Below are positions 25,176-64,000 of a stretch of 64,000 nt of DNA, in pieces. The stretch lies in assembly GCA_018857735.1 (NCBI GenBank), contig JABMCL010000194.1:682501-746500 (forward strand). Reading direction: 5' to 3'. The first letter of the stretch is position 1. Every line of letters begins with the position of its first letter. This DNA comes from Alviniconcha marisindica. Taxonomy: Eukaryota; Mollusca; Gastropoda; Provannidae. The notes beneath the pieces are model-generated. The model searched no databases and was not told the origin of the DNA. It worked only from the letters and a program-made list of their open reading frames with translations. The translations under genes were made by a program, and so were the position numbers.

Positions 25176-25960
25176 CTAATAATGGAGAATCATGGAATAT
25201 GACCCCAGCGTCTGTTTGTCAGCCTCCGATCCTTGTGAGGGAAACACAGGTGCTCTGGGCAGAGTGGGTTCCGAGCTCTCAGCTGCCCTGGCAAAAGTCT
25301 GCTCCATGGAGAAGGAGAAATCCTGAGGGCCCGACTCTGATGAAAGAGACGGCTCGGCGAAGTGGGCTCTCTGGCCAAGCAGGTTTGGCCAGGGCAGAAC
25401 CCGAGGAGGTTCTCTGAACGAAGACTTCCTGGTGGCCAGACTAGCCCAGGCAGTTCCCGCAGAGGTCTCCGCGACTGGCTTGCTGGGCTGTTGACCCGCC
25501 CACATCACTTCCTTCGAGGACTCCCCCATGGACTTCCTCCCCCACAGCGCATCCCTGGGTGGTTCTGGGGCAGACTTTGCCCCCCACGCGTCGTCCAGTG
25601 AAGACTCACCCGCAGTCTTTCTCGCCCAAAGATCATCCCTGAAAGATTCTTCAAAGGATTTCCTTGCCCATGGCTCTGGTCTCGAAGGATCTCCTGCGGC
25701 TTTCCTGGCCCACATCTGTGGAGCCAAGAGCTGTGGCACAGGCGCTCTGGGCACCTGGCTCGGCCACGTCTCGTCTTGAGAGTGTTCTTCGCCAGCCCCC
25801 TGCCGCCCTGGACCGCTGGGCCACAGGTCTTCCTTCGCAGAAGACTGGGCTGCTGTGGTCTTCCTCGGAGGTGGTGGCGGCCCAGAGTTGTCCACCTGCT
25901 CAAAGTACTGCTGGGGTTGGTGCTTGGACAGGTAGTCCGTCTGGTCCTGCTTGTCCGGAC
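25176..25960 (-). CDS. zinc-finger cassette I, terminal exon with a 14-residue Trp repeat
   Basis: The acceptor ctctgtgtggcag sits just above 25960. The exon starts with GT, completing a Gly codon with the single G left by exon 26694-26997 (ET-G-PDKQDQ), and ends at TAG 25176-25178. It encodes 260 residues without zinc fingers: a Pro/Gln-rich start with PPPPPRKTTAA, then a tandem repeat of 14 residues beginning W-[AG]-x-K (for example WARKSFEESFRDDL, WARKTAGESSLDDA, WGAKSAPEPPRDAL, WGRKSMGESSKEVM). About five clean copies are followed by looser ones of 18-19 residues. The tail is Ser/Pro/Glu-rich. I do not recognise the repeat. It may be an intrinsically disordered effector or interaction region. 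Confidence 0.75.
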
Positions 25961-25984
25961 CTGCCACACAGAGGTCAGGGGTCA

Positions 25985-26330
25985 AATGGTTGGGTCACTC
26001 TGTGGGGTCCCCAGTCTGGGGTTGGCTGGTTGGTTAGTTGCTTTGGTTGCTTAGGAGGATTGGTGGGTTAGTTAGTAGGGGTGGTTGGCTGGTTAGTAGG
26101 GGTGGTTGGTTGGTTAGTAGGGTTGGTTGGTTAGTTAGTAGGGTTGATTGTTTAGTAGGGTTGGCTCGTTAGTAGGGTTGGTTGCATAGTAGGGTTGGCT
26201 GGTAGTAGGGGTGGTTGGTTATTTAGTTATTAGTTAGTAGGGATGGCTGGTTAGTAGGGATGGTTGGTTATTTAGTTTTCAATTAGTAGGGATGGCTGGT
26301 TGTTTAGTAAGGTTAGCTGGTAAGTTAGCA
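25985..26330. repeat. short tandem repeat (ggttggttagtaggg)
   Basis: About 15-20 imperfect units in the intron just upstream (minus strand) of the acceptor at 25961. Confidence 0.9.
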
Positions 26331-26394
26331 GGGAAATCCTCGAGTTTTTGAGTTCAAGTTCTCTTTCTCTGTTTTTGTCTGTGTGTGTCTCTCT

Positions 26395-26465
26395 CTGTCA
26401 CACTCACAAAAACGCACATACACACTCTCTGTCACACATTCACACACATGCACACACACGCACAC

Positions 26466-26508
<43 letters not shown>

Positions 26509-26559
26509 ACACACACACACACCCCACACACAATACACACACACACACACAAAACACAC

Positions 26560-26593
<34 letters not shown>

Positions 26594-26644
26594 ACACAAT
26601 ACACACACACACACACAACACACACACACACACACACCACACAC

Positions 26645-26688
<44 letters not shown>

Positions 26689-26692
26689 CACA
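26395..26692. repeat. (CA)n microsatellite starting at a splice donor
   Basis: Nearly 300 bp of CA with single-base interruptions. On the minus strand the intron begins G|GTGTGTATATATGTGTG, so the donor of exon 26694-26997 merges into the microsatellite. Confidence 0.95.
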
Positions 26693-26693
26693 C

Positions 26694-26997
26694 CAGTTTC
26701 ACATGACTGGGGCCTCCTCTGGGTGACGATGCCATGTTTCTTCATGTGGCAGTCCAGGCTGGTTTTCTGCACAAAGGCAGCTTCGCACAGTTTGCACTGG
26801 TAGGGTTTGACCCCTGTGTGCAGTCGCTGGTGGGTCCGCATGTTGTAGGCAGTGGTGAATCCTCGGCCGCACTGCTCACACTTGAAGGGGCGGTCCCCGC
26901 CGTGTGTCTTGATGTGGCGGCGCAGTCGCAGCTTGGTGTAGAATGACTTGGTGCAAAGGTGGCAGTAGAACTTCCGCTCTCTCTCGTGTACTGACAG
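26694..26997 (-). CDS. zinc-finger cassette I, exon with three C2H2 fingers
   Basis: Acceptor aatctgttcag, phase 0 start, donor GAAACTG|GTGTGT leaving one base. It continues the finger helix begun in the previous exon (YLKEHK + LSVHERER) and adds FYCHLCTKSFYTKLRLRRH, FKCEQCGRGF...MRTHQRLH with linker HTGVKPY, and YQCKLCEAAFVQKTSLDCH. The closing motif with QKxSLxxHMKKH is shared with cassettes II, III and IV, which shows common ancestry. Function is inferred as sequence-specific nucleic-acid binding in the nucleus. Confidence 0.85.
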
Positions 26998-27313
26998 CTG
27001 AACAGATTGAATGACAATCTGTAATGTACATTAAAAAACAAAAAAAAAAGCAAAACTTCCATGTTCACAGCATGAGGTCCCCCACCACACCCTGTGTGAC
27101 ACAATGATGTAAGCACAAACACATATGCACATAGATGATAGAAGACATTACACTACAGCCGAAAACAATTCTTTTAAAGGAATGTGAATGATTAGGTGCA
27201 TGACAACATCAGTCCTCTAGTCCTGCCACCAACCCAAAAACAATTCTTTTAAAGGAATGTGAATGATCAGGAGAAGAAGACATCAGTCCTCTAGCCCTCC
27301 CATCAACCCCTAC

Positions 27314-27517
27314 CTTGTGTTCCTTGAGGTAGACAGCGGAGGTGTAGCTCTTCGGACACAGGTCACACAGAAACATCTTCTCTCCTGAATGAGTCCTGAG
27401 GTGTTTGTTGAGGATGGATGTCTTGTGTGTGGTGTAGTCGCAGTAGCTGCAGGTCTTCATGCTGTACGTGTTCATCCCATGCTTCAAAAGGTGGGCCTTC
27501 ATTGACCCTCGGAATAT
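27314..27517 (-). CDS. zinc-finger cassette I, exon with C2H2 fingers (split finger at both ends)
   Basis: Acceptor TCTGGTTGACAG|ATATTC, donor CACAAG|GTAGGG, phase 0 in and out, 204 bp. The first residues IFRGSMKAHLLKH finish a finger whose CDVCGE is in the previous exon. Then come KTCSYCDYTTHKTSILNKH, FLCDLCPKSYTSAVYLKEH and a canonical HSGEKMF linker. The acceptor and first ~24 coding bases are copied several times in the neighbouring array 27518-27810. Confidence 0.88.
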
Positions 27518-27810
27518 CTGTCAACCAGACAAAACCCTGTGTGTTAGACAACAAAGCAGGCCTTCATCCACTCTTGGAATATCTGTCAGCCAGACAAAAC
27601 CCTCTGTGTTATACAAGGTAGGCCTTCATCCACTCTCGGAATATCTGTCAGCCAGACAAAACCCTCTGTGTTATACAAGGTAGGCCTTCATCCACTCTCG
27701 GAATATCTGTCAGCCAGACAAAACCTTTCATCCAAGAATAGCCTTCATCCACTCTCGGAATATCTGTCAGCCAGACAAAACCTTTCATCCACCCTCAGAA
27801 TATCTTCAGG
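27518..27810 (-). repeat. 62-bp minisatellite made from an intron acceptor plus exon start
   Basis: Four to five units. Each contains (minus strand) a pyrimidine-rich GTTTTGTCTGG run, GCTGACAG and ATATTCCGAGAGTGGATGAA, matching the real acceptor and exon start of 27314-27517 with few changes. Each unit is thus a potential decoy acceptor. Confidence 0.85.
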
Positions 27811-27959
27811 CTTTTTGCATTGAATACTATTCATGGACTAAAGCTGCTAAACCGATTGGCACCCTGGAACTGTCTCAAATAGTCCATGCAACCAACCACC
27901 CAATCCTACCAGCCAGACATCCAATCCTACCAGCAGAACAAAACCCCATACAGACTTGC

Positions 27960-28199
27960 CTCGCCACAGACGTCACATTGCTGACGGTGGTACTTAGATG
28001 GCTTGAGCACATGCACACGCAGGTGTTGCACGAAGTCGTGGCGTGAGCTGAAAGCCTGCTGACACTCGATGCAGTGATTGGGTCGCTCGTCCAAATGGCC
28101 AGCAAAGTGGATCATGGCTGCCTGCTCCTGTGCCGCACAGAAAGACTGCTTGCACACTGGGCACACAAAGTCTGCAGCAGGCTGAGCAGAACGCTGCAA
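27960..28199 (-). CDS. zinc-finger cassette I, exon with C2H2 fingers, GC donor
   Basis: Acceptor gtttctttccacag, phase 0 start at LQRSAQPAADFVC, 80 codons. Fingers are FVCPVCKQSFCAAQEQAAM...H, HCIECQQAFSSRHDFVQHLRVH and the start of a third, QQCDVCGE, completed in the next exon. The exon ends GAG|GCAAGT, a canonical GC-AG intron donor. No GT donor gives the correct join. Confidence 0.85.
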
Positions 28200-28309
28200 C
28201 TGTGGAAAGAAACAATGACTGTACAGCTGAAACTTACTACACCTTTGACCTCCCCTTTTATTTCTACTCCCCACCCCACCTCTCTCAGCCTCAACAGGCT
28301 TGCATTTTC

Positions 28310-28985
28310 TTCTCTCCTTCAATGATTCTTCCAAGAACCAGACATAGCTCACCCCCCAAAAGATGAGTGGTTTAGCTCTCCATCTCATTTTTTCATTGTT
28401 TTTCACCATTTAATTGTTGTTTAAGTAAGTAAACATGGTGCTTAAGGTCCACAGAAACCATAAGGTTTATTAGGGACAGGGAGAAGGGGGGAAGGGGGTA
28501 TGGAGGTTGGGGGAGAGGGAGATTATATACCTATCGCTACACTGTCACCACCAAAATGACTTCTGCATTAAGATGGGCAGCGACGAGAGCCATTTTAATG
28601 TTTCATAATTGTGAGGGACAAAGTCACAAGACAGTGTCCACAGACCACAAATTTTGAAGAGAAAGGAAAGCTGAAGCAGATTCAAACCGAGGTCCCTCTG
28701 CTTACCAGCCTAAAGCCTTACCGCTAGGCCAAACTGGCTCACTAAAGTAGGTAGTGTTGCTTAATGTCCTCAGGTGTCAGTTGACATATTAGGGACAAGC
28801 TGAGACCAATGCCGAAGCATGGTTCAATATAGCTTTACATCCATGGAAACCAGACGGCTTGTTAGGACGGACAGCCAGGATGGCCACCTCAACTCTCACC
28901 CAGCTCCTAAACTATGAGTGGCTCACTAAGTTGTTTAAGTGTAGTTTTGTAGCTGGGTTATCCCCCAAATTTGCATGTTGTATTT
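28310..28985. repeat. foldback element split by SINE B, itself split by element D
   Basis: The outer element (28310-28425 and 28930-28985; cf. 59215-59480) carries a 10-bp duplication gttgtttaag at 28416-28425 and 28930-28939. These bracket a minus-strand family B SINE (28426-28745). The SINE's head is in turn interrupted by element D (28746-28918) with an 11-bp duplication tggctcactaa at 28735-28745 and 28919-28929. This gives a clear three-level insertion order. Confidence 0.8.
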
Positions 28986-28999
28986 TGTAAATAGTGTTA

Positions 29000-30310
29000 T
29001 TTTGAACTTTTTATGTGTGGAACTTCTTTCCTGACTCAGTGAACTTTTTACTATTTCATCCACTTTCTTATTTTAGCAAAAAGGGGGCTGGGGTGGGGGG
29101 TGGGGCCAGGGGCCTGAACATCCTGTTGTTCTAAAGGCGATGTGGCTCTTAAGGCAAGACCGACAACTCTGCTGTGCTCTCATTCTCCTTGGTCCAACCT
29201 TTTTCAACACCTTTGCTAATTGTTACAAATTCATTATTTTGAAGGGTGGTATAGCTCCGCTAAAGCAGACTTTCTTTGATGAGAGTTGTCTGAGCTTGCC
29301 ATGGGAAATTACAAACAGGATGGCAAAATATCAACAAACATTCGGAAGATAAAATGACAGACATAAAATTGCCAGTTTAGCAGCTATCGGGTTACCTCCC
29401 TTGACGCGATGGAAAGCGTTCCCTCACGCGACTCATCGACTTATCAGTTAATGCAGACAACAGCATAGTGATATTTTCTCTCTCGGAGTAATCTTCACTG
29501 GAAAGGAAACTTCACTGGAAAGGAAATGTTTGTGATCTGTTAATACTATCAGAATTCTTTCAGCCCCAGCAATTCTACTACAATATAACCTAATTACAAG
29601 TTTTTTTGCGAACCTGCAAAAACATAGTAAAATATACAAATTAAGCTCGTAAGTAATCCGTGGAAGCAAAACCGAGTCATATTTCTTATCAACAATTTAT
29701 AAGTCCACCAGTACAATCATACTGGTTTGAAAAAGGAAGGTTATTCACATATTTGGCTGAACACCAGCTATTTTATACAAATGTTGAGGTTGACACCTGT
29801 CGATTATACGTGTGTATGTGTAAACCCAAGACAGTTCCTATGGTTATATTCTTGTCTGATTGAGAATGATCCTTTCTCTCAAGGAAGAACAGGCGCTTGC
29901 CTGTATATTTCTTACTCGCCAGCCGCGTTGGTGTGTACAGATCGTCAGCGAGGGTGGCGTAAAATTACTCAAACACATACCTTTCCGCAACCAAACGTCT
30001 GGTAAATACCATGTATCACACCCCTAACCCTCAACCGTATCTACCATAACCCGTCTGCGTTACCCCTTATCCTGTCTGATACCATACCCCCCTACCCTTC
30101 TGGTATCTTCGATAGGTATCTTGGTAACCGCCCCACCCCCACCTGCTTAACTGTCCCACTTCATAGCCTATGTGATAATTTACTGTCCCACCCCACCTAT
30201 CACATAACCTATCTGGTATTTTACTATCCCACCCGCATCCCGTACCTATCTGGTATTTTACTCTAACCACCCTGCTGTCTGGTTATACCTAGACTGACAG
30301 TGGTACTCTG
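29000..30310. other. no gene supported; degenerate tactcatac-type tandem at 30005-30260
   Basis: Mostly unique sequence. From 30005 to 30260 there are loosely repeated cccaccctacc/ctatctggtattttac units. Nothing codes convincingly apart from the small exon candidate at 30316-30355. Confidence 0.5.
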
Positions 30311-30315
30311 TTAAC

Positions 30316-34314: not shown

Positions 34315-34430
34315 GGGTCTGTTTCTTCAGCATGGTCTTCATCCAGTCCTCCATGATGAGGTCTTCCTCTCGCTGTCGCTTGTCCTGTGCACACTCCATC
34401 AGCGCCTCCAGCGACACCTCCGCCCCCTCT
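34315..34430 (-). CDS. zinc-finger cassette I, helical linker exon
   Basis: Acceptor gtgtttttgacag, first base completes Arg with the AG left by the previous exon, donor GACCC|GTGAGC. The 38 codons, EGAEVSLEALMECAQDKRQ and then REEDLIMEDWMKTMLKKQT, are strongly helical and acidic/basic. In Myb/SANT-like proteins a similar helix follows the DNA-binding domain; here it may be part of that domain or a short coiled coil. Confidence 0.75.
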
Positions 34431-34859
34431 CTGTCAAAAACACACACAGGCTGCATCAGCTCCCTTTTACAATACAATACCACACAAATGAACTTTATTA
34501 TTCTAAATAAATGCATAAAACAAAAATATGTCTTTTGGGTCACTCAAATTCCACACACAAAAAAGGACAGTTTGACAATTCAACACAACAAGGAGTGTAC
34601 AGATGAAAGGAAACATCGTAAAACATCACTTCTGAGATCAATTAAGTGCACATTCATTACTCATATTCCGACCCTTCACCACCTCTCCATTCTCCAAAAC
34701 AATGCCCGCACATCCACCCACCCACAAACACCTCCACCCACATTAAAAATACCACTACACTGTAAACCAAGATAACTCTACAGGCTACAAGCTCTCCAAT
34801 TCCTTCCAACATCAACACTCACAGACTCAAGCTCTTCCATGCTCATCTCCCCCCCCCTG

Positions 34860-35688
34860 TCTACCTGAGGTACATACACCCTCCACTTACCTTTCCCATT
34901 GTTTACCTGTCTACCTGAGGTGTGTACACTTACATTTCCCCTTTTTGCTTGCTTACCTGTCTACCTGAAGTGTTTACCTGTCTACCTAAGGTGTGTACAC
35001 TTTTGCTTACATTCCCCCTTTCTGCTTATTTACCTGTCTACCTGAAGTGTGTACATTTTCACTGTATACTTTTTCCATTTCTGCTTGCTTACATGTCTAC
35101 CTGAAGTGTGTACAGCTTCATTTATAACTTTCTGCTTGCTTACCTGTCTACCTGAAGTGTGTACACATTTAGTTACATTCTTCCTTTCTGCTTATTTACC
35201 TGTCTACCTGAGGTGTGTACACTCACACTCCCCCTTTCTACTTGCTTACCTGTCTACCTGAGGTATGTACACTTTCACCCACATTTCCCCTTTCTGCTTG
35301 CTTACCTGTTTACCTGAGGTGTGTACACTTACATTTCCCTTTTCTGCTTATTTACCTGTCTACCTGAGGTGTGTACACTCACACTCCCCCTTTCTACTTG
35401 CTTACCAGTCTACCTGAGGTGTGTACACTCACACTCCCCCTTTCTACTTGCTTACCTGTCTACCTGAGGTGTGTACACTTACACTCCCCCTTTCTGCTTG
35501 CTTACCTGTCTACCTGAGGTGTGTACACTTACATTTCCCTTTTCTTCTTGCTTACCTGTCTACCTGAGGTGTGTACACTCACACTCCCCCTTTCTGCTTG
35601 CTTACCTGTTTACCTGAGGTGTGTACACTCACACTCCCCCTTTCTCCTTGCTCACCTGTCTACCTGAGGTGTGTACACCTTCACCTAC
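34860..35688 (-). repeat. ~50-bp minisatellite grown from a splice donor
   Basis: About 16 units. Read on the minus strand each holds AGAAAGG(GGGA)GTG, TGTACACACCTCAG and GTAGACAG|GTAAGC. The first unit is continuous with the exon end GGAGAAAG|GTAGGTG of 35689-35850. Several GT sites per unit resemble good donors. Confidence 0.85.
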
Positions 35689-35850
35689 CTTTCTCCTTTC
35701 TCGGGGAGGTCTTTCTCGGTGGGTTTCTCCTCATCAGTGGGTTTCTCCCCAGTGACCCTGGTGTTCCTCTTCATCCTAGCCTGCTGGTGCCAAGCTTCTT
35801 GGCATTCCTCCGACCCCTCTTCTCTCTGCTGCTTCCGTCTCGATTCAAAT
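35689..35850 (-). CDS. zinc-finger cassette I, charged linker exon
   Basis: Acceptor actgtggctgcag, first base A completes an Arg codon with AG from exon 37589-37790 (LLNR-FESRRKQQ), donor GAGAAAG|GTAGGTG. The 53 codons contain FESRRKQQREEGSEECQEAW and a Lys/Glu/Pro stretch TGEKPTDEEKPTEKDLPEKG. The start continues the last helix of the Myb/SANT-like domain. Confidence 0.82.
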
Positions 35851-37588: not shown

Positions 37589-37790
37589 CTGTTCAGCAGG
37601 AACGTAATCCTTTGTCGGACATGCCTGCCGTTGCAGTTGAACTTGGGTCGCACAAGGTCGCAGACGGCTTTCCAGGCGTCCGAGATCCTGGGATAGCGGG
37701 AGGCACACCAGGGGTTGACTTTGACGGCCGCCTCAACCAGCTCCCGATCCTGCTCGGCTTTTGGCACACGTCGGCTGGGGCCCGTCACAG
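37589..37790 (-). CDS. zinc-finger cassette I, Myb/SANT-like DNA-binding exon
   Basis: Acceptor cgctctgtctttcag, first two bases CT complete a codon from an unseen upstream exon, donor CTGAACAG|GTGGGT. The 66 codons read TGPSRRVPKAEQDRELVEAA, then VKVNPWCASRYPRISDAWKA, then VCDLVRPKFNCNGRHVRQRI and TFLLNR. The pattern L-x2-AV-x-VNPW...I-x2-AW-x2-V...R-x2-R-x-R-x5-LL is that of Myb/SANT-like helix-turn-helix domains. The exon join to 35689-35850 keeps the frame. Joined to C2H2 fingers this suggests a two-module DNA-binding protein. Confidence 0.8.
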
Positions 37791-44174: not shown

Positions 44175-44897
44175 CTATTTCAGGTGCTTCTTCATGTGTA
44201 CATTGAGGGAATTTTTCTGGGCGAAAGCAACGTCGCACAGCTCGCACCGATATGGCTTGTAGCCGGTGTGAATGCGACGATGAAACTCCAGGTTGGACTG
44301 CGACTTAAAAGCATGGCCGCAGGCGTCGCACCGGTAGTCGCGCACCCCGGAGTGCATCTTGAGGTGCTTGTCCAGGTAGCGGCGCAGGTAGAAGGTCTTG
44401 GGGCAGTGCTGGCAAGGGAAGGTGCGACTGCGGATGTGTCGACTCTGCCGGTGGACGTTGAGGCCACCCCGGGTGCTGTACCCCTTGCCGCACACCTCGC
44501 ACACGTAGGTCTTGGGCCCCACGTCGGTCCCGTGGTGGTTGCACAGGTGCAGCTTGAAGGAGCGCTGGATGTTGGTGGAGTAGGGGCACATCTGGCACTG
44601 GAAGAGGCGAGCGCCCGCCGGCCCGCCCCCGCCGTGGCCCAGCTCCAGGTGGGCGCGCAGTTTCTCCAGGTTGCCGAAGGTGTCGCCGCACTTGTGGCAC
44701 ATGATGCTCTTGTTGGGCCGCTTGAACAGCAGCTTCTGCTGGCTCTCCGACAGCAGCAGGCCACCCGGGTTGAGGGTCACGCAGGAGACCTGCTGGTCCG
44801 CGCTGACGCAGATGTGAGAGGCGATGCCGCGCTGGGAGAAGTGGGTGTTGCACTTGAGGCAGCGGAAGCCCGCGCTTTTCCGACTCACTGCTGACTC
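44175..44897 (-). CDS. zinc-finger cassette II, terminal exon with seven C2H2 fingers
   Basis: Acceptor tttactgtcaccgcag, phase 0 start ESAVSRKSAG, stop TAG at 44175-44177, 240 codons. After FRCLKCNTHFSQRGIASH comes a spacer with SESQQKLLFKRP (a related [12 protein letters not shown] is in cassette III). The fingers that follow begin IMCHKCGDTF, LFQCQMCPYS, YVCEVCGKGY, FPCQHCPKTF, YRCDACGHAF and YRCELCDVAF, the last with [12 protein letters not shown]. All Cys and His ligands are present in the last six fingers. GC-rich codon use contrasts sharply with the AT-rich introns. Likely a nuclear DNA-binding protein. Confidence 0.9.
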   Translation of the reverse strand, partial: ESAVSRKSAGFRCLKCNTHFSQRGIASHICVSADQQVSCVTLNPGGLLLSESQQKLLFKRPNKSIMCHKCGDTFGNLEKLRAHLELGHGGGGPAGARLFQCQMCPYSTNIQRSFKLHLCNHHGTDVGPKTYVCEVCGKGYSTRGGLNVHRQSRHIRSRTFPCQHCPKTFYLRRYLDKHLKMHSGVRDYRCDACGHAFKSQSNLEFHRRIHTGYKPYRCELCDVAFAQKNSLNVHMKKHLK

Positions 44898-46260
44898 CTG
44901 CGGTGACAGTAAAACAGACAGAGACCTGTGGGTTAGGAGGAAACTAAAGCCCATACACAGGTTAAACTACTACAGCTGTGAAGCATGTAGAAGAGCTCCA
45001 ACAACACAACCACTTTTTACCAAACATTTTTTTCTCAGCTTAGGTTTTATGCAATAAGTGTTGTTCTTCTGCGTCCTTGTGAATGTGCCGGCCACTTCCA
45101 ATCCTAGCACTGTGTGGGCAACAGCTGTATCCCCCCCCCACCCCCCCCCAAAGGCAGCAAAGAATACAGGTAGCTTGCGTCTCCGAAGATGTGAAGTGTT
45201 GAGCAAATCTGACACACTACCAGTGGGCACAAAGCCAAGGACATCACACCACCAATCGTCTGGAGGAGAGAGGGGCAGAGAAAAGCATGAGCTTCCTTGA
45301 AAGGACGAGAAAGGGCCACCATCAAAGTGACAAACATTACAACTATTCAAAGGCAACATTGGGGAAGCCTCTGAGAGACAGGGTGGATCGCGTACATACC
45401 ATGTTCCACAGAACTGGACAGGAGGGACAGTCAGTCTAATCTTTCAAAAAACAAACAAAAGACGGGGTGGGGAAAAAAAGGCAGCAGGTCAGCCGTTGGG
45501 ATGATTTATACACAGAGCTCAGTGTCTAGTTATGGATGAAAGACCAGACAGACTGCTGTTCACGTGAACAGTTTCGCAGGTTCAGTTCCTTCTTGATCTG
45601 TTCTGGGCACCAAGGTGTTAAACATTTGGGCAGAACTGGAGTGAAAACAGCCCTGTGAATGGTCCCCCCATGTTCTGCCGTCTTGTCGCCAGCTGCCACG
45701 TCATTTTTAGCGTTTCACCGCCACTTTCTTCATCCTCTCGGTGCCCCACCACCAATCACCATCCTCATATTCACAGGCTGACAGCTGCACAATTCCACGG
45801 AAAAGAGAGAGAGTGCAACCGAACCAGTCCACTAGTCTTTTTTTTTAAAGTTTTGTTTAGAAGTAACTTGAGGAGTTTTAAGGAGTTTTTAAGGAGTTTT
45901 TGTTTTTTTGTTTTGCGAACACCCCCTAAAGTGCCGGAATAATCATCAACATAACTGTGGGCATCTAAGGAAAGAAGAAGAAGAAGCACGAAATGAACTG
46001 TATGACAAATCAGTAGCAAATTGGCACGAACAACAAACATGCTGAGTGTCACAGGTGTTCTGAGTGGGCCATGAAGTCTCCAAGACTTTGCAACCAGCAA
46101 ATGAAACGGCAAGACATAATGCATAAGTGTGTGTCAAATGGGTTGTGTGAATGGTCCTTAAGCTGTGACATAATATCATTATTTAAACCAGTTACTTGGG
46201 ATTCGGTCATAATAACGACTTGAGTAACAGCATGCATACAGAATGAACAGTCAACACACT

Positions 46261-46263
<3 letters not shown>

Positions 46264-46345
<82 letters not shown>

Positions 46346-46364
46346 ATTCACACACACACACACA

Positions 46365-46442
<78 letters not shown>
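46264..46442. repeat. (CA)n microsatellite
   Basis: CA run with two short att interruptions, in the intron just past the donor of exon 46473-46522. Confidence 0.95.
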
Positions 46443-46445
<3 letters not shown>

Positions 46446-46472
46446 ACATGAAATAAACCACCATGTACTCAC

Positions 46473-46522
46473 ATTCCACATCTTGGCTATAACATCAGCA
46501 AGAGGAAGCTCCACCACAGTGC
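46473..46522 (-). CDS. zinc-finger cassette II, 50-bp micro-exon
   Basis: Acceptor GTGTTGACTTCAG, donor TGGAAT|GTGAGT. Its first two bases complete a Gly codon with the G left by exon 49131-49265, then 16 codons read TVVELPLADVIAKMWN in phase 0 into ESAVSRK of the terminal exon. Cassette III has an exon of exactly the same length and phase reading IAVQMPLSDVIVKLIT. The conserved PL[AS]DVI[AV]K core indicates a real, selected exon. Confidence 0.85.
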
Positions 46523-46870
46523 CTGAAGTCAACACAGTCATTCAAATTACTGAAGTCAACATAATCATTCAAATTACTGAAGTCAACACATTCAAATTAC
46601 TGAAGTCAACACAGTCATTCAAATTACTGAAGTCAACACAATCATTCAAATTACTGAAGTCAACACATTCAAATTACTGAAGTCAACACAGTCACTCAGA
46701 TTACTGAAATCAACACAATCATTCAAATTACTGAAGTCAACACAATCATTCAAATTACTGAAGTCAACACAATCATTCAAATTACTGAAGTCAACACAGT
46801 CATTCAAATTACTGAAGTCAACCCAGTCATTCAAATTCCTGAAGTCAACACAATCATTAATGTCAGTCCA
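46523..46870 (-). repeat. 27-bp minisatellite grown from a splice acceptor
   Basis: About 13 units of ttactgaagtcaacacaatc plus attcaaa. On the minus strand every unit ends GTGTTGACTTCAG, the acceptor of exon 46473-46522, so the real site is the last of a row of near-identical ones. Confidence 0.9.
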
Positions 46871-47254: not shown

Positions 47255-49130
47255 CACACACACACACTATCTGGCCAGGTGTTGCTGTCCAGCAGACACT
47301 ATCTGGCCAGGTGTTGCTGTCAAGCAGACACTAACCTGGCCAGGTGTTGCTGTCGAGCAGACACTAATCTGGCCAGGTGTTGCTGTCCAGCAGACACTAA
47401 TCTGGCCAGCTGTTGCTGTCCAGCACACACACTAACCTGGCCAGGTGTTGCTGTCCAGCTGTAATCTGGCCAGGTGTTGCTGTCGAGCAGACACTAATCT
47501 GGCCAGGTGTTGTTGTCCAGCTGTAATCTGGCCAGGTGTTGCTGTCCAGCAGACACTATCTGGCCCAGTGTTGCTGTTGAGCAGACACTAATCTGGCCAG
47601 GTGTTGCTGTCCAGCTGTAATCTGGCCAGGTGTTGCTGTCCAGCAGACACTATCTGGCCAGGTGTTGCTGTCCAGCAGACACTATCTGGCCAGGCGCTGC
47701 TGTCCACCAGACACTAATCTGGCCAGGCGCTGCTGTCCACCAGACCAGTAGACACGCTAATCTGGCCAGAGCTTTGCTGTTCACTGATTGCGGTGATTCC
47801 CCATGCGTGTCCACAGAGCAGACTGCGCATGGTACAAAACACAGCACGACTCACAGTGACCCGTACACACTCACCTGGCTGGTGTTCACCACACAGCAGG
47901 TTGTGGTGATTCCCCATGTATGTCCACATAGCAGGTTGCTTGTGGTACACAACACAGCATGTCTGACAGTGACCCGTACACATTCACCTGGCCGGTGTTC
48001 ACCATGCAGCAGGTTGTGGTGATTCCCCATGTACACATTCACCTGGCCGGTGTTCACACCACACCAGGTTGTGGTGATTCCCCATGTACACATTCACCAG
48101 GCCGGTGTTCACACCGCACCAGGTCGTGGTGATTCCCCATGTACACATTCACCTGGCTGGTGTTCACACCGCACCAGGTTGTGGTGATTCCCCATGTACA
48201 CATTCACCAGGCCGGTGTTCACACCACACCAGGTTGTGGTGATTCCCCATGTACACATTCACCAGGCCGGTGTTCACACCACACCAGGTTGTGGTGATTC
48301 CCCATGTACACATACCAGGCCGGTGTTCACACCACACCAGGTTGGGTGACCCGTACACATTCACCTGGCCGGTGTTCACCATGCAGCAGGTTGTGGCGAT
48401 TCCCCATGTACACATTCACCTGGCCGGTGTTCACACACACCAGGTTGTGGGATTCCCAAAACCCTAGGCCGGTGTTCACACCACACCAGGTTGTGGTGAT
48501 TCCCCATGTACACATTCACCAGGCCGGTGTTCACACCCACCAGGTTGTGGTGATTCCCCATGTACACATTCACCTGGCTGGTGTTCACACCGCACCAGGT
48601 TGTGGTGATTCCCCATGTACACATTCACCAGGCCGGTGTTCACACCACACCAGGTTGTGGTGATTCCCCATGTACACATTCACCAGGCCGGTGTTCACAC
48701 CACACCAGGTTGTGGTGATTCCCCATGTACACATTCACCAGGCCGGTGTTCACACCACACCAGGTTGTGGTGATTCCCCATGTACACATTCACCTGGCCA
48801 TGTCACCATGCAGCAGGTTGTGGCGATTCCCCATGTACACATTCACCTGGCCGGTGTTCACATCACACCAGGTTGTGGTGATTCCCCATGTACACATTCA
48901 CCAGGCCGGTGTTCACACCACACCAGGTTGTGGTGATTCCCCATGTACACATTCACCTGGCTGGTGTTCACCACACAGCATGTTGTGGGGACTCTTCATG
49001 GACTACACAACACCGCATCTCTCACGCACGTGCCACAGAACACACTGACCTGGCCGGTGTTCGCTGTACACGGGTTGCGGGGACTACACAGCACTGCAAG
49101 TCTCACGCACGTGTCACACAACACACTGAC
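47255..49130 (-). repeat. complex minisatellite (33-, 55- and ~110-bp units) grown from a zinc-finger exon and its donor
   Basis: Right part: 55-bp units, about 18-20 copies, reading on the minus strand ATGGGGAATCACCACAACC, TGGTGTG and TGAACACCGGCCAG|GTGAA. They match the exon end ATGAGGAACCACCACAACC...CGAACACCGGCCAG|GTCAG of 49131-49265. Longer units at 47750-47995 and 48980-49130 also match the exon further upstream. Left part (47255-47750): ~33-bp units with ctggccaggtgttgctgtcc, a shorter derivative. The array is the start of the intron. Confidence 0.88.
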
Positions 49131-49265
49131 CTGGCCGGTGTTCGCTGTACAGCGGGTTGTGGTGGTTCCTCATGTGTGTCTGCAGTGTGGTCTGCGTGCA
49201 GTACAGCATGTTGCACGTCACACACAAGTGGAGGGAATCAGACACCGCCTCCTCTCGTGTCATCT
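49131..49265 (-). CDS. zinc-finger cassette II, one-finger exon
   Basis: Acceptor ggtacatttcag, starts AG|ATG (completing a codon from an upstream phase-1 donor), donor CGGCCAG|GTCAGT leaving one G. The 44 codons include MTREEAVSDSLHLCVTCNML and YCTQTTLQTHMRNHH, a C2H2 finger, then NPLYSEHRP. Cassette III exon 53299-53415 has the same phases, the same AG|ATG start and a finger in the same place. The 3' end seeded the neighbouring array. Confidence 0.85.
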
Positions 49266-51583: not shown

Positions 51584-52349
51584 CTAATACAAGTATCGAT
51601 ACGTGATGGGGCTAGCCATCAGCTCCTTGGCATGTTTCTTCATGTGAACATTCAGACTCGCCTTCTGAATAAAGGCCTGATCACAAAGCTGACACTTGAC
51701 TGGTTTTTCCCCAGGTGTGCCTGTAGCGGTGGTTGGTCATGTGGTGTTTGCGGTTGAAGCGCTGACCGCAGAGGTCACACTCGTACTTGCGGACATTGGC
51801 ATGGATGGCGGTGTGGCAGTTTAGCTTTGTCTTGCTGTGGAAGAACTTTGGACACTGGTCGCATGGGTAGATTTTGGCATGGAGCTCAACTCTTTCCTTG
51901 TGAGCCTGAAAATACTTGTTCTCTGTGAAGCTGCTGTTGCCGCAGACACGGCTGTTGAGTTGGTTAAAGTGCCGCTCTTTCCTGTGGACTTCCAGCTTCC
52001 ACTTACTGGTGGCTTCATACCTGCAGATCTGGCAACAATACTTCCAGGACACGGTGGGTGAATGAACAGCGCCGACATGCTCCCAGAATGCAGAAGTGTC
52101 CATAAAGTCCAGCTGGCAAGCGCGGCACTGGGCATCGGCAAAGACTCGGCCCTTGAAGAGCAGGGTCTGCTGGTCAGGTTCAAGGCCAATGCTTTGCAGT
52201 TCATCTACAGTGCTGTGCCGGCAGGTGTACTTCCTGCAACGTTGCACTCGGTGCACTCGGATGTGGTCTGCAATCTGGTGCCGGCTAAGGTAAGTTTGAC
52301 ATCGGAGACACCTGAAGCAGGTGAAGAGGTATGCCCCGTCACCATACAC
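51584..52349 (-). CDS. zinc-finger cassette III, terminal exon with a frameshift before the last finger
   Basis: Acceptor cctgttttgtgtttcag, phase 0 start [11 protein letters not shown]. The frame encodes [19 protein letters not shown], the spacer with [48 protein letters not shown], a degenerate finger (SRVCGNSSF...H, first Cys replaced by Ser), [19 protein letters not shown] and [19 protein letters not shown]. At 51713 one extra base (CACACC-T-GGGGAA) shifts the frame, and translation stops at 51681 after SQVSAL. Beyond the shift, bases 51712-51584 would still encode a complete last finger ([20 protein letters not shown]) and stop at 51584. Either the gene is damaged, the allele is polymorphic or the base is an assembly error. 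Confidence 0.82.
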
Positions 52350-52479: not shown

Positions 52480-52801
52480 ACCCTTACCATGTTGCTGTTC
52501 AAGGTCAGATCATCTGCGTGAACTTCCTGTTATGAACTTGAAGGTAACATCATCATGTGAACTTACTGTTAACCACTTGAAGGTCATATCACCATGTGAA
52601 TTTACTGTTATCAGCTTGAAGGTCAGAACACCATGTGCCCTTACTGTTATTCATGTGAAAGTCACATCAATAAGTGAACCTATTGTTATTAATACTTGAA
52701 CGTCACATCACTATGTGAATTTACTGTTATCACTTGAAGGTCATGTTACCATGCGAACTTATTGTCATCAACCTGAAGGTTACATCACTGTGTGAACTTA
52801 C
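52480..52801 (-). repeat. 39-bp minisatellite grown from a splice donor
   Basis: Eight to nine units. On the minus strand each reads close to GATGTGACCTTCAAG, TTGATAACA|GTAAGT and TCACATG. The exon 52802-52851 ends GATGTGATCGTCAAG, TTGATAACA|GTAAGT, so the repeat unit is exon end plus donor. Confidence 0.88.
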
Positions 52802-52851
52802 TGTTATCAACTTGACGATCACATCAGACAGAGGCATCTGAACAGCAATGG
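52802..52851 (-). CDS. zinc-finger cassette III, 50-bp micro-exon
   Basis: Acceptor gtgttctttttcag, first two bases CC complete an Ala codon with the G left by exon 53299-53415, 16 codons IAVQMPLSDVIVKLIT, donor ATAACA|GTAAGT, phase 0 into VYGDGAY. Same length, phases and core motif as the cassette II micro-exon (46473-46522). Confidence 0.85.
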
Positions 52852-53298: not shown

Positions 53299-53415
53299 CT
53301 TTTTCATGCCTTCTCGTTTCGTTTTGTATATGTTCTGCAACAGCTGCTTCATCAACGCAGAATTTGTGGCACACTGAACACATGAACAGTACTTCTGTCA
53401 TTTCCTCTTCCATCT
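53299..53415 (-). CDS. zinc-finger cassette III, one-finger exon
   Basis: Acceptor GTTGCTTTTTACAG, starts AG|ATG, donor GAAAAAG|GTGAAT leaving one G. The 38 codons are MEEEMTEVLFMCSVCHKFCV and DEAAVAEHIQNETRRHEK, a C2H2-like finger (C-x2-C...H-x5-H). Equivalent in phase and position to exon 49131-49265 of cassette II. Confidence 0.82.
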
Positions 53416-53700
53416 CTGTAAAAAGCAACACACATCTTCTGTCAAAAAAAAAACAATTTCCTTTGTAACGCCATATCTACCATTTATGTAAAAAGCAACA
53501 CACATCTTCTGTCAAAAAACAAACAATTTCCTTTGTAACGCCATAACTACCAATTTTGTTGTAAAGCCCAAACACACATCTGTCAAAACCACAAATTCCT
53601 TTGTAACGCCATAACTACCATTTGTGTAAAATGCAACACACATCTTACGTCAAAACCAGAAATTCCTTTGTAACACCACAACTACCATTTATGCAGTGGT
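53416..53700 (-). repeat. ~80-bp minisatellite adjoining a splice acceptor
   Basis: About four units with gtaaaaagcaacacacatct, tctgtcaaaaa and tttcctttgtaacgccataa. On the minus strand each repeats GAAGATGTGTGTTGCTTTTT plus ACA, the pyrimidine tract and acceptor region of exon 53299-53415. Confidence 0.85.
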
Positions 53701-58025: not shown

Positions 58026-58068
<43 letters not shown>

Positions 58069-58250: not shown

Positions 58251-58255
<5 letters not shown>

Positions 58256-58654: not shown

Positions 58655-58765
58655 AACTGAAAAGCATTTAACGATGAAAACTGCCATTTTGACAAAGTCT
58701 GTGACATCAAAAGCATTTGACGACGAAAACTGCCATTTTGACAAAGTCTGTGACATCAAAAGCAT
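58655..58765. repeat. 47-bp direct duplication
   Basis: Two copies of gaaaactgccattttgacaa plus agtctgtgacatcaaaagca. Confidence 0.8.
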
Positions 58766-59214: not shown

Positions 59215-59482
59215 AGATCCAAACACATAAAAGGTTCAAAATAATGCCGTTTATTACGACATGACACAATATGCGAATTTTCAGGGTAATCCCCTTCATC
59301 AAACACTTCCAAGCAATCTTTATCAACATTCTTCCAAGCACTGGACAGAGCTCAACCAAAAACAAACAAAAAAAGATGAGTGGATTAGCTCTCCATCTCA
59401 TTTTTCATCATTTTTTTTTTCACTGTTTAATTCTTAAATGTCATTTTGTAGCGTGATAAAGGGGATTACCCCCAAAAATTCC
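59215..59482. repeat. foldback/MITE-like element
   Basis: Inverted arms: aattttcagggtaatcccct plus tcatca at 59276-59301 and tgataaaggggattaccccc plus aaaaatt at 59454-59480, enclosing about 150 bp. Related copies or halves lie at 28310-28985, 33480-33635 and 40340-40420. Confidence 0.65.
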
Positions 59483-59484
59483 AG

Positions 59485-60330
59485 GCTGTGGGGAACTCAA
59501 AATTTCACACAGGCACAAAACACTGAAAAAACTCAAAATTTTGCACAGGCACAAACACTGGAAAAAAAATCTAAATTTCACACAGGTACAAAACACTGAA
59601 AAACAACACACAAAAATTCACACAAGCACAACACTGAAAAAACTCCAAATCTCACACAGACACAAAAAAAACTGGAAAAACAAACTCAAAATTTCACAGA
59701 CACAAAACAGAAAAAACTCAAAATCTCACTCAGGCACAATATTGAAAAAACTCAAAATGACACTACAACACTGAAAACACACATACACACACACACAAAA
59801 ACAAAACAAAAACACTCCAACATGACAATGCGGAAAACCCCCAATAACAACAAGCAAGCAAGCAAACAACTCAAAATGACACAAGGGCACAAGACTGCGA
59901 AAACTCAAAATCAGACACCAGATTCAGAAACATCATTTTTCACAGGAATCCACAAATGTGTTTCTGAAAGACTGCCTTAGAAAGTACTCAAACAGTTCTG
60001 TGCACTTCTCTTATCTCAAGAATGACCCCTGCTCGCTACTGACAAACAAATCTGATGATTGCAAAACGACACTTCCAGGCAGGACACTGCAAAAAGTGAA
60101 ACAAAATGACACACAGCAGAATACTGCAAAAACTTCAAAATGACACAGGCAGAATACTGCAAAACCTTCAAAATGTCACAGTTCTAGGCAGGACACTGCA
60201 AGAAGTCAAAATGACACACAGGCAGAATACTGAAAAAAACTTCAAAATGACACAGTTCTAGGCAGGACACTGCAAGAAGTCAAAATGACACACAGGCAGA
60301 ATACCGCAAAACACTGAAAATGTCACCAAT
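59485..60330. repeat. degenerate tandem repeats (aactcaaaatttcacacagg; cttcaaaatgacacag)
   Basis: 59485-59760 has ~40-bp units with caaaacactgaaaaaactca. 60060-60330 has ~75-bp units with ctaggcaggacactgcaag and tcaaaatgacacacaggc. Confidence 0.8.
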
Positions 60331-60689
60331 CCAGAATATAGTAAAAAGTCCCCAAAACACTGAGGCAGAACCCTCCAGCAGGTCAAAAGATACAGACATT
60401 CTGTAGAAAAGAAAGAAAAAGAGCTGCTCAACTGTACTAATAACCATTATGCCTTGGTAACTGATAACCACACCCTGTGTGAATAATTTCAATAAATCTA
60501 TACTAACCATGATGCCACATGAAGCATCAAATAATTCAAAATAACAAAAGCAGGCAAACAATTGGGGACAAAATAATGAAAAATGTGAACCCTCTAAAGA
60601 TGACAATTGTTTAAATAGTATTGTGCTCCATATGAAATAAACACAATAATAGGGTATACTTAAGAAACAGTGCATGCTGTATAAGTAAC

Positions 60690-60704
60690 TGCACACACAC
60701 ATGT

Positions 60705-60768
<64 letters not shown>

Positions 60769-60801
60769 GCACACACACACACACACACACACACTCAGGC
60801 A

Positions 60802-60832
<31 letters not shown>
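60690..60832. repeat. (CA)n microsatellite
   Basis: CA run with atgtg and tcaggcatg interruptions. Confidence 0.95.
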
Positions 60833-61269
60833 GCTGAAGGCACACAATAAGGAGAAGTACAAGAACTGAAATATTTTTGTTGGAATAATGTAAGTTATTA
60901 TGCAACAGCGACCACTAAACCTCCAGTCATCTATTCACCTGACCCATGATACTGAATAATAAAACAGCAAAAAAGCCAGAAATGGCGGTACCGGCCAGCC
61001 TCCTGGTTTTGTGGGTGATGCTTGAAAATGACAAGAAAACACGAAGCAACTTAATATACCGACACTAACGCAATCAACCAAGACCAAATGGCACGTGAAA
61101 AGTACAGCCACAAACAGTTTTGACTGCCACACATGGAAGCAAGATGTGAAGCACATCACTGCACACACACACATGTGCGTCTCTCTTCCCTCCCCCCCCC
61201 CCCAATCACATGCATGCACACCCACCCACATACTACTAATACATGCACTGCTGGTGATAGGTTGGTAGA

Positions 61270-61400
61270 AAAGAAAAGAAAGAAATGACAAATCAGTACA
61301 CAGTAGAGAAGAGGGTTGGTTTTCAGTTTTGACTTAAAAAGAGAGTAAAGAAGAAAGGATCTCTTCCCCAGGGTCCTCCTGCCCATCTCGGGAACACAGA
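61270..61400 (-). pseudogene. possible LINE RT C-terminal scrap
   Basis: The minus strand encodes GRRTLGKRSFLLYSLFKSKL followed by KT, resembling the RTLGxRSF...FKSKLKT frame of LINE ORF2 tails with the middle missing. Short, so uncertain. Confidence 0.3.
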
Positions 61401-61539
61401 AAATCCAGGTATGTGAGGCCGAGTGAAGAGAGCGAGAAGAGTAGATGGGGTATGTTCTTCATGCCCTGCCATCCCCACAAAATGGCTGTCCCACTGCCAT
61501 GTGCCAGTCACGTTTTCCGCACAAAGACAACTGTGACGG

Positions 61540-61900
61540 AGCCTCAGACCTGTGAAATTAGTCCGCCTGCAACGCTACTCACGTTCTGACAGGAAAGTCA
61601 GCTTCGGTGGAATCTTTTCTGCCCACCGTCCTTGTGGAAGTGTCTTGCCAGCAATGCCCGAGTCACATTTCTCTGGCAAAGTCAGCCCTGGTGGAGTGTT
61701 TGGTATTGTACTGTCCCTACATACATGTGCTGCCAGCAATGCCACATTGTCAAGTCAGCTCTGGTGGAGTGTTTGGTATTGTACTGTCCCTACATACATG
61801 TGCTGCCAGCAATGCCACATTGTCAAGTCAGCTCTGGTGGGGTGTTTGGTATTCTACTGTGCCTACATACATGTCCTACCAGCAATGCCAGTCACGCTCC
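61540..61900 (-). repeat. ~73-bp minisatellite adjoining a donor-like site
   Basis: About four units with ctggtggagtgtttggtatt, gtactgtccctacatacatg and gccagcaatgccacattgtc. The edge segment (61575-61700) is an open minus-strand stretch (CDSGIAGKTLPQGRWAEKIP and PKLTFLSE) ending GTCAGAAC|GTGAGT, which may be an exon. Its CCACCGAAGCTGACTT matches the unit's CCACCAGAGCTGACTT. Confidence 0.7.
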
Positions 61901-62419
61901 CTTGTGAAGTCAGCTCTAAGAGTTCACAAGCCAGATGCAAATGAAAGCCAAAGCCAAAGCCAGGCAAAATTCAGCAGAAGTCAACAAGCAATAGCACAAT
62001 TAACACGGCCAACAAGCGTCGACTCAAGCCTATTGACTGCTGAAAGGGATAAATGTACAGAACACGCAGACTACTGACGTTGCGGTCTTCAGACAGACTA
62101 CACTGCATGGGAGGACAATACCTGGCTGAGACAGAAACACAGTTGCAGAATCACTCCAGCTATGCGCAACACCAGGTCAAATAACTTCTTTGCTGCAGAA
62201 AAGAAACAACAGAGAACAGCAGATAAAACTAAACACCAGGCTCATTGGATTGGTGCAAATTAACACAACACTGGCCTTTCACAGATGGAGACATGCCCAT
62301 GATACAAAATGGAAACATGTCCCTGACACTAGATGGAAACGTGCACATGGTACAAGATGGAAACGTGTCCATAATACATGTTGATGATACACTCCTAGTA
62401 CTCAGTAACCCTAGCACTC

Positions 62420-63085
62420 AGAAATCTCCTTCAGTGATATACATGTTCCACAGACGGAAACATGTCCATGACACACTTAGTAACCCTAGCCCTAAAAAGA
62501 AACTTCAGTAATATACACGTTCCACAGATGGAAACATGTCCATGACACACTTAGTAACCCTAGCCCTGAAAAGAAACTTCAGTAATATACATGTTCCACA
62601 GATGGAAACATGTCCATGACACACTTGGTAACCCTAGCCTTACAAATTCTCCTTCAGTAATCTACATGTCACACAGATGGAAACATGTCCATGACACACT
62701 TGGTAACCCTAGCCCTAAAAAGAAACTTCAGTAATATACATGTTCCACAGATGGAGACATGTCCATGATACACTTAGTAACCCTAGCCCTAAGAATTCTC
62801 CTTCAGTAATATACACGTTCCACAGATGGAAACATGTCCATGACACACTCAGTGACCCTAGCCCTAATAATTCTTCTTCAGTAATATACAAGTTCCACAG
62901 ATGGAAACATGTCCATGACACACTTGGTAACCTTGGCCGTAAAAAGAAACTTCAGTAATATACATGCTCCACAGATGGAAACATGTCCATGATACACTTC
63001 GTAACCCTAGCCCTAAGAATTCTTCTTCAGTAATCTACATGTCATACAGATGGAAACATGTCCATGACACACTCAGTGACCCTAT
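62420..63085 (-). repeat. ~73-bp minisatellite downstream of cassette IV stop
   Basis: About nine units with gttccacagatggaaacatg, tccatgacacacttagtaac and cctagccct. The core agatggaaacatgtccatga resembles agatggaaacactgtcatgg in the terminal coding sequence at 63191-63211. Confidence 0.9.
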
Positions 63086-63146
63086 CGTTAAGCAGTGCCC
63101 TTCAGTGGGCAAAAGCTGACCATACCAACAGACGCCAGCTCTGGCC

Positions 63147-64000
63147 TCACGGTCTGGTGACAGGCATGAACTGGTAGGACGGGCCTGGTATAGATGGAAA
63201 CACTGTCATGGCATACTCCGGGTAGGCTGCATACCCGTACTGCATCCGTTGAGGATTGGAACCCGACACCTCTCTCGGGTGCTGCGGACTTGATATCTCC
63301 CTGGAGTGTGGGAGATTTGACACCTCTCTCGACTGTGGCGCTGGCAGTGGGTTGGACGCCTCTCTTGCAGCGGAGTCCAAACGCTCGGCCTGTTTGTGGC
63401 GCGGGCTGGCGGTAGCGGTAGTTTCCGTCGTCTCTCGGAGGCGATGGGTGTGCAGGTTGGAATGCTTCCCTCCCCCCTCATGCTTTTTCATGTGAACATT
63501 CAGGCTGTTCTTCTGGGCAAAGGCTGCATCACACTGCTGACACTTGTAGGGCTTCTCGCCGCTGTGCAGCCGCTCATGGACCTTGAGGTTGTACTTGACC
63601 GTGAACCCTTGACCGCAGTGCGTGCACACCCAGGGGCGCTGCCCAGAATGGGTCCTCAGGTGCCGACGCAGCCCTTGGCGGCGGTAGAAAAACTTGGGGC
63701 AGACGTTGCACTGGAAGATCTTGTCCTTGACGTGCATGTACTGCTTGTGCTGCTCCAGGACGCCCTTGAATACAAACGTCTTCCCACACAGCTCGCACAC
63801 GTGGGGCCGAGGCCGCGGCTCGTCGCTGTGCTGCCCGCGCATGTGGATCCCGAAGTAGAACTTGTTGTTCGTGGCGTAGGGGCAGTGGTCGCAGACAAAC
63901 TTCTTCAGCTCCACGCCGACGCCGTGTGACTGGACGTGCATCTGGAAGGAGGTGTTGTCGGTGAAGGGGGTCCCACAGGTGTGGCACAGGTACTCCCGCT
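63147..64000 (-). CDS. zinc-finger cassette IV, terminal exon with six C2H2 fingers, cut by window end
   Basis: The frame is open to the window edge; no acceptor is visible. It ends at TGA 63147-63149, at least 283 codons. The fingers begin YLCHTCGTPF, FVCDHCPYAT, HVCELCGKTF, FQCNVCPKFF, WVCTHCGQGF and YKCQQCDAAF. The last ends [12 protein letters not shown] as in cassette II, with canonical HSGEKPY linkers. The ~100-residue tail is Ser/Arg/Pro-rich and has three loose copies of a [HQ]xREVSxxP motif (QSREVSNLP, HSREISSPQ, HPREVSGSN), then ends in GPSYQFMPVTRP. Likely a nuclear DNA-binding factor. Confidence 0.88.
   Translation of the reverse strand, partial: REYLCHTCGTPFTDNTSFQMHVQSHGVGVELKKFVCDHCPYATNNKFYFGIHMRGQHSDEPRPRPHVCELCGKTFVFKGVLEQHKQYMHVKDKIFQCNVCPKFFYRRQGLRRHLRTHSGQRPWVCTHCGQGFTVKYNLKVHERLHSGEKPYKCQQCDAAFAQKNSLNVHMKKHEGGGKHSNLHTHRLRETTETTATASPRHKQAERLDSAAREASNPLPAPQSREVSNLPHSREISSPQHPREVSGSNPQRMQYGYAAYPEYAMTVFPSIPGPSYQFMPVTRP

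Follow-up and report, generated by a model that had tools for sequence, protein, structure and literature searches.

We analysed a 64,000-nucleotide stretch of the Alviniconcha marisindica genome (GenBank assembly GCA_018857735.1, contig JABMCL010000194.1, positions 682,501 to 746,500, forward strand), referred to below as the window and numbered from its first letter. The window carries split zinc-finger genes with long introns and many microsatellites, which are marks of an animal genome, and we find that minisatellite arrays lie at six exon-intron junctions of these genes, with several of the arrays holding copies of the junction itself. Our gene models comprise 13 exons with 22 junctions, all on the minus strand, and were built from reading frame, phase, GT/AG dinucleotides (one GC) and homology. 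Below, all features are on the minus strand unless stated otherwise, and a slash within a motif marks the exon-intron boundary.

Zinc-finger genes of the window

The closest protein to gene 1 (25.2-37.8 kb) is "zinc finger protein 892-like" of Littorina saxatilis (P0017; 57% identity, 98% query cover). Exon E1 (37589-37760; donor CAG/gtgggt, 5' limit undefined) was located by tblastn of P0017 residues 5-63. Exon E2 (35689-35850; donor AAG/gtaggt) aligns in its 5' part with the YESTRK of P0017 and has its donor placed by phase only, and exon E3 (34315-34430) follows from tblastn of P0017 138-172 and frame. Exon E4 (27960-28199) is set by frame, phase and P0017, and exons E5 (27314-27517) and E6 (26694-26997, both edges gap-free) by the P0017 alignment. 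The C-terminal exon E7 with the stop (25176-25960) is given by its open frame, a cag acceptor and the P0017 alignment. Across E4-E5 the gene reads CDVCGE followed by IFRGSMKAHLLKHG, and P0017 reads CDVCGE followed by VFQGSMKAHLLKHG. From this gap-free alignment the acceptor lies at 27517 and the donor, which is of the GC type (GAG/gcaagt), after 27960, so that the Littorina ortholog supports a GC-AG intron here; the E5-E6 alignment is gap-free too. The zinc finger across E4-E5 is short of two residues, as is that of P0017. Since the E3-E4 junction is out of phase and P0017 has about 20 residues in between, the model probably lacks an exon between E3 and E4.

Genes 2 (44.2-49.3 kb) and 3 (51.7-53.4 kb) form a paralogous pair whose exons a, b and c correspond, and C2H2 zinc fingers are recognised by Pfam in both P0017 and gene 2. 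In gene 2, exon a (g2a; 49131-49265) is based on phase, the paralog and alignment with a second homolog, P0002; exon b (g2b; 46473-46522) on P0002 and, by eye, on exon b of gene 3; and exon c (44175-44897), with the zinc fingers and the stop, on reading frame and Pfam. P0002 (348 aa, from a 1,087-base contig) appears to stem from a spliced transcript. Its identity to gene 2 is 44%, and the a-b and b-c junctions align without gaps, with a 2-residue gap within exon b and low similarity at b-c. In gene 3, exon a (g3a; 53299-53415) rests on phase and paralog position, exon b (g3b; 52802-52851) on paralogy with g2b, both edges of which match by eye (TVVELPLADVIAKMWN in gene 2, IAVQMPLSDVIVKLIT in gene 3), and exon c (51680-52349) on frame. 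The frame of gene 3 breaks at 51680-51740, near its last zinc finger, where one finger seems to be without its usual residues; either a pseudogene or a sequence error seems to be the cause. Gene 4 has its stop codon at 63147 and extends into the window end. Of the edges used below, the E2 donor, placed by phase only, and the g3a acceptor, placed by phase and paralogy, have the weakest support.

Tandem arrays at exon edges

Tandem Repeats Finder (TRF) returned 148 rows for the window. Keeping those with a period of at least 15, a length of at least 90 and a score of at least 100, excluding dinucleotide-like units and merging the remainder gave 35 arrays, which together cover 11,831 bp or 18.5% of the window; the stretch from 25.1 to 53.8 kb contains 16 of these arrays. 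A preliminary description of this stretch had placed arrays exactly at exon edges at six places or more. We find tandem arrays beside phase-consistent exons at all six that it listed, although the fit is exact for one (g2b) and within 6 nt for two. Donors and acceptors are both affected, as had been described, with three of each (donors E2, g2a and g3b; acceptors E5, g2b and g3a).

In gene 1, the array at the E5 acceptor (27488-27782) has a 62-bp unit and four decoy copies that hold the acceptor plus 23-30 exon nt, and the intronic array next to the E2 donor (34856-35678) has a 50-bp unit with decoy donors of the CAG/GTAAG type. The intron between exons a and b of gene 2 has arrays at both ends. 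A proximal array at the g2a donor (47788-49159) combines unit lengths of 55, 81 and 113 bp, with 45 exon and 10 intron nt in most units; a distal array derived from the same donor (47264-47745) has a 33-bp unit of 23 exon and 8 intron nt in which GT has mostly become AT; and an array of acceptor copies with a 27-bp unit (46523-46858) ends at the g2b acceptor. In gene 3, an array with a 39-bp unit containing at most 25 exon nt lies at the g3b donor (52518-52826), and an array with a 67-70-bp unit ends at the g3a acceptor (53410-53690). The stretch of exon that falls inside the TRF array is 30 nt for E5, 29 for g2a, 25 for g3b, 6 for g3a and 0 for g2b, where the array stops at the AG. The E2 array includes no exon sequence and starts 10 nt into the intron. 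At the E1 donor the nearest array end is about 190 bp off.

Exon-edge sequence within the units

We compared the units of all 35 arrays, on both strands, with 16 coding segments and with 60 shuffles of each, a procedure that should give about 0.6 false hits. Five arrays scored above their shuffles: those at 27488, 47264, 47788 and 52518 and, weakly, that at 62400. Array 27488 matches E5 (27488-27517), array 52518 matches g3b up to its donor, and the matches of arrays 47264 and 47788 to g2a end at the donor or 2 bases away. Thus four arrays at three junctions (27.5, 47.3, 47.8-49.2 and 52.5 kb) contain copies of the edge of the adjacent exon on the same strand, which bears out the earlier proposal that some arrays were seeded by the junction itself. 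Coding sequence in the units, which the earlier description gave as frequent (8-50 bases), is present in these four arrays; those at 34.9, 46.5 and 53.4 kb lie beside a junction and hold little or no exon sequence.

Because arrays 27488, 47788 and 52518 themselves overlap the exon edge, we limited a search with each junction as query to the intron past its first 40 bases. This search recovers four copies at E5, 33 at g2a and four hits at g3b, three of which have the donor position; counted by either approach, 33-35 junction copies are recognisable for g2a. The four E5 copies hold 19-34 intron and 23-30 exon nt, agree with each other at a mean column value of 0.97 and are 88-90% like the true junction. 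The proximal g2a copies have a mean column value of 0.965 and are 75-84% like the true edge, with the first copy at 90%. Judged by these means, the E5 and proximal g2a units are homogenised within the array, and the boundary copy is exempt. When each unit is aligned to its own junction, the exon edge is thus found at E5, g2a (in both arrays) and g3b, but E2, g2b and g3a yield little or none of it. The 16 hits of the E2 units are 80-92% like the region of the real donor, and the strong CAG/GTAAG-type site of these units derives from intron sequence; the g2b units include the acceptor and end at the AG, so that none of 7 hits reaches the exon; and at g3a two of three hits cover the site and extend into the exon by 9-10 nt. 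Exon similarity at E2, g2b and g3a (P 0.048, 0.057 and 0.10) was dropped as proof of spanning. Units that span an exon-intron boundary occur in arrays 27488, 47264, 47788 and 52518, with only 9-10 exon nt in 53410, and the spanning arrays affect both types of boundary (acceptor E5, donors g2a and g3b).

Three further arrays had been put forward as possible members. For those at 56.6 and 61.6 kb, no coding segment among the 16 resembles the units more than shuffled sequence does, and we dropped them, no exon edge having been found. Between 54 and 63 kb, three homologous proteins gave no tblastn hit; other genes there were not sought. The array at 62.4 kb is not confirmed as a member either. It lies downstream of the gene 4 stop (63147), and its unit matches coding sequence at 63192-63217 only weakly (score 30 against 26 for the best of 60 shuffles, with about 0.6 such hits expected by chance among 35 arrays). 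This array (62400-63084) contains telomere-like ttagggctagggtta words.

Comparison of the paralogs adds a time frame. Gene 2 has arrays at the a-donor and the b-acceptor, and gene 3 at the a-acceptor and the b-donor; since the paralogous junctions have no arrays in common, the arrays probably arose after the paralogs split. Arrays account for 2,161 bp of the 2,608-bp a-b intron of gene 2. The remaining 447 bp equal the length of the corresponding gene 3 intron (447 bp), an exact agreement that is surely accidental. Units of 81, 55, 113 and 33 bp are found at the g2a donor, and the 33-bp unit is closer to the true junction (27/32) than to the 55-bp unit (23/35), which hints that it may have been seeded separately from the latter.

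Fate and strength of the duplicated splice sites

Many but not all array copies keep their AG or GT, and the arrays divide into some that keep the dinucleotide and others that lose it. GT is present in 20 of 22 junction-aligned copies of the proximal g2a array (the others have GG and AT), or in 19/20 of a slightly different copy set in which copy 48509-48455 has lost its donor. The distal g2a array retains GT in 2/11 copies aligned with the junction query or 2/15 of another copy set, and g3b in 4/7. AG is retained at E5 (4/4) and g2b (13/13) and lost at g3a (0/3 readable copies). At E2, GT stands at the position of the real donor in only 5/15 readable hits, and the intronic CAG/GTAAG-type site is present in 15/15. 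Where sites are lost, at least one of the two dinucleotide columns is below the unit mean. This mixed fate is as expected of homogenised neutral copies.

Donor strengths were scored with a matrix. On this scale decoys reach the real donors (E2: CAG/GTAAGC 11.0 versus 9.8; g2a: CAG/GTGAAT 8.7 versus 8.6); at g3b one decoy ties with the real donor (7.1), and in the distal g2a array only two sites score at least 4. Decoys picked by motif are followed by an in-frame stop in 19/19 cases at g2a, 31/31 at E2, 4/4 at E5, 12/12 at g2b and 4/5 at g3b. If the genes work, splicing must therefore choose by position, and a position-based choice of the exon-side site would appear to take place.

Array placement relative to chance

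The preliminary description held that chance adjacency of so many arrays to exon edges is unlikely. We examined this by placing the 16 arrays at random over 25.1-53.8 kb with its 22 junctions, allowing an exon overlap of no more than 30 bp (20,000 trials). For 6/16 arrays the exon-facing end lies within 30 bp of a junction; the null mean is 1.07, and 8/20,000 trials reach 6 (2/20,000 at the same tolerance when the two g2a arrays are merged). At a tolerance of 15 bp the count is 3/16 (304/20,000 trials), and at 5 bp it is 1/16, which is not significant (3,598/20,000); 10 of the 16 arrays are away from known junctions. Counted from the side of the junctions, 6/22 are touched within 15 bp, a number reached in 0/3,000 trials with 30 bp of overlap allowed and 56/3,000 with 50 bp, and 4/22 are overlapped outright (6/3,000 with 30 bp allowed). 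Two results speak against an excess at junctions: with 60 bp of overlap allowed, the outright count is not significant (408/3,000), and neither is a circular shift that ignores exons (mean 5.15; 1,592/4,043 shifts reach at least 6). These laxer nulls let arrays lie over whole exons of 50 bp or more, which would hardly be tolerable in working genes. Founding segments that include 20 or more exon nt are seen in four arrays as against 0.39 expected (P 0.0004, or 0.006 with g2a counted once); the count of four and the lengths of the units were entered into this test by hand. The window, a single one, and the tolerances of all placement tests were picked after the data had been seen. An excess over chance adjacency is seen at 30 bp and is not significant under the 5-bp, 60-bp-overlap and circular-shift tests; one selected window suggests that junctions are favoured as array sites, in a manner that depends on the null.

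Relation to known systems

The preliminary description knew of no system of this kind, but such repeats have been described. Those known as "mirages" in amphioxus are minisatellites that duplicate intron-exon boundaries, 5' as well as 3' edges; they are found in Adh3, the globins BflGb6 and BflGb9, troponin C (TnC) and PGBD5 and are said to leave splicing undisturbed (PMC3087553, PMC3902484). They share with the arrays described here boundary-spanning repeats, both edges, several genes per genome and an AG or GT in many but not all units. The snail case differs in concerning a mollusc genome, in having six junction-associated arrays in one 28-kb cluster with 33-35 copies from one junction, and in being known from the genome sequence of one haplotype alone. 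The human CBS variable number tandem repeat c.1444_1467+7(16_21) has a 31-bp unit of 24 exon and 7 intron bases in 16-21 copies (PMC2630376) at exon 13/intron 13 (PMC2630376, PMC5188458). It is likewise a many-copy repeat whose unit spans a donor with exon and intron bases, unlike the present cluster of arrays in affecting a single gene and being polymorphic in people. In CBS 844ins68 the intron 7/exon 8 junction is duplicated, and the distal copy is reported to be strongly favoured (PMC2630376). Human segmentally duplicated genes have internal tandem repeats at exon-intron boundaries, with 27 intron modifications (PMC2812944). These resemble the snail arrays as minisatellites at exon-intron boundaries of recently duplicated paralogs, but are defined by copy-number differences between near-identical paralogs, the repeat being often retained in an alternative transcript. 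No report of junction-derived minisatellites in a mollusc was among the matches listed, which comprised titles and the starts of abstracts, most subscription papers being outside the search. In the text available, papers on earthworm metallothionein, a C. elegans minisatellite, abalone TSSK1, gastropod hemocyanin introns and Conus introns describe no junction-spanning arrays. The snail arrays belong to an already described repeat type, which the mollusc case extends.

Origin of the arrays

Based on these data, we consider it likely that the arrays are minisatellites of the mirage type, which begin with a junction-spanning tandem duplication, grow into the intron and are tolerated since the exon-side copy is spliced. 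A short tandem duplication, made by replication slippage or repair, would span or abut a splice junction. New copies would then accumulate and become homogenised within the intron, since an extension into the exon would alter the protein. The spliceosome would stay with the exon-side copy, as has been reported for human and amphioxus counterparts, and the remaining copies would for that reason be intronic, roughly neutral decoys; no function for the arrays would be needed. The exon-side copy is probably the one spliced, with the decoys passed over. The exon edges behind this reading have homology support from P0017 at E5, from the paralog at g2a, g2b, g3a and g3b, and from P0002 as well at the two gene 2 edges, and are set by phase at E2. 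Several points weigh against this explanation. Three of the six junctions (E2, g2b, g3a) have arrays with little or no exon sequence, where plain adjacency is possible. The dinucleotide columns are invariant or nearly so in the proximal g2a, g2b, E5 and E2 units (unit means 0.93-0.97), which may leave room for weak selection, many other columns being equally invariant. The stop counts are weak evidence, as stops are frequent in any intron. Normal splicing at the six junctions is something we infer. Finally, the excess at junctions is above that of purely random duplication, although it comes from one selected window. The mirage-type explanation would add a mollusc to amphioxus and human as carriers of a little-known type of repeat, with six in one cluster and a paralog in the same window as control, and would make these genes natural test cases for the choice by position among equally strong splice sites and for intron growth by junction duplication.

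A somewhat speculative extension is that in this snail lineage duplication is aimed at transcribed splice junctions and that introns grow by recopying their own ends, as the a-b intron of gene 2, with arrays at both ends and 83% array sequence, might illustrate; we regard this as possible but rather unlikely. Closely related, and marginally more doubtful in our estimate, is a duplication process of this lineage that prefers exon-intron junctions, where co-transcriptional breaks, R-loops or local repeats at the splice sites, for instance, might attract it. The excess in the window (6/16 against 1.07) and the four spanning arrays at three junctions (against 0.39) agree with such a process, as do the several unit lengths at the g2a donor (81, 55 and 33 bp), the 33-bp unit being nearer to the junction, which would point to repeated seeding. 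However, the window was picked for its pattern and the tolerances are post hoc, significance is lost under the circular-shift and 60-bp-overlap nulls and reduced under the 50-bp null, and 10/16 arrays are off known junctions. The earlier suggestion that a repeat-generating process favours junctions thus has the excess in this window behind it and is not established, given one chosen window and the dependence on the null. An excess that extended to the whole genome would indicate a duplication process directed at junctions.

It is improbable that adjacency is mostly chance in a minisatellite-rich genome, with only the exon-edge arrays derived from junctions as random duplications would give. 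Arrays do take up 18.5% of the window (35 in all), the 5-bp count of 1/16 is ordinary, and the exon ends of E2, g2b and g3a are little like the units (P values as above); but just 8/20,000 placements reach the 30-bp count, and spanning units are above expectation. Far less credible is the idea, also raised in the preliminary description, that the arrays are useful and that redundant or decoy sites regulate splicing of the zinc-finger genes. The dinucleotide is present in all or nearly all copies at g2b (13/13), E5 (4/4) and proximal g2a (20/22), and at E2 and g2a the decoys match the true site in strength. Several arrays have nevertheless lost the site (distal g2a, g3a and part of g3b), the paralogous junctions are without arrays and most tested decoys lead to a stop, which leaves usefulness unsupported. 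Least credible of all is that the arrays are older than the exon edges, which would have been recruited from repeat copies, or that the gene models are wrong: the E2 donor is placed by phase only, with E2 weakly conserved, g3a by phase and paralogy, and the out-of-phase E3-E4 leaves gene 1 incomplete, but the E5, g2a and g2b edges agree with the ortholog, the P0002 homolog or the paralog, and the paralog in the window is without arrays at matching junctions.

Other features of the window

An array at 26020-26301, 60-340 bp upstream of the E7 acceptor, contains 7 of the 8 minus-strand TACTAAC motifs of the window. We take TACTAAC to be a branch-point-like word, and this is possibly an array of decoy branch points. 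Among long (TG)n microsatellites, that at 26433-26693 starts at the E6 donor and that at 46254-46448 about 24 bp past the g2b donor. Two arrays at 59494-60326 have units with acceptor-like words (tttttgcag, ttttttcag), and there are no known exons nearby. A dispersed sequence (cattaaaatggctctc...) is similar, by eye, at 28600-28480 and 51350-51190 and is perhaps a short interspersed element. On the plus strand, the leucine-rich-repeat open frames at 1392-2675 and 14566-15861 are closely similar paralogs.

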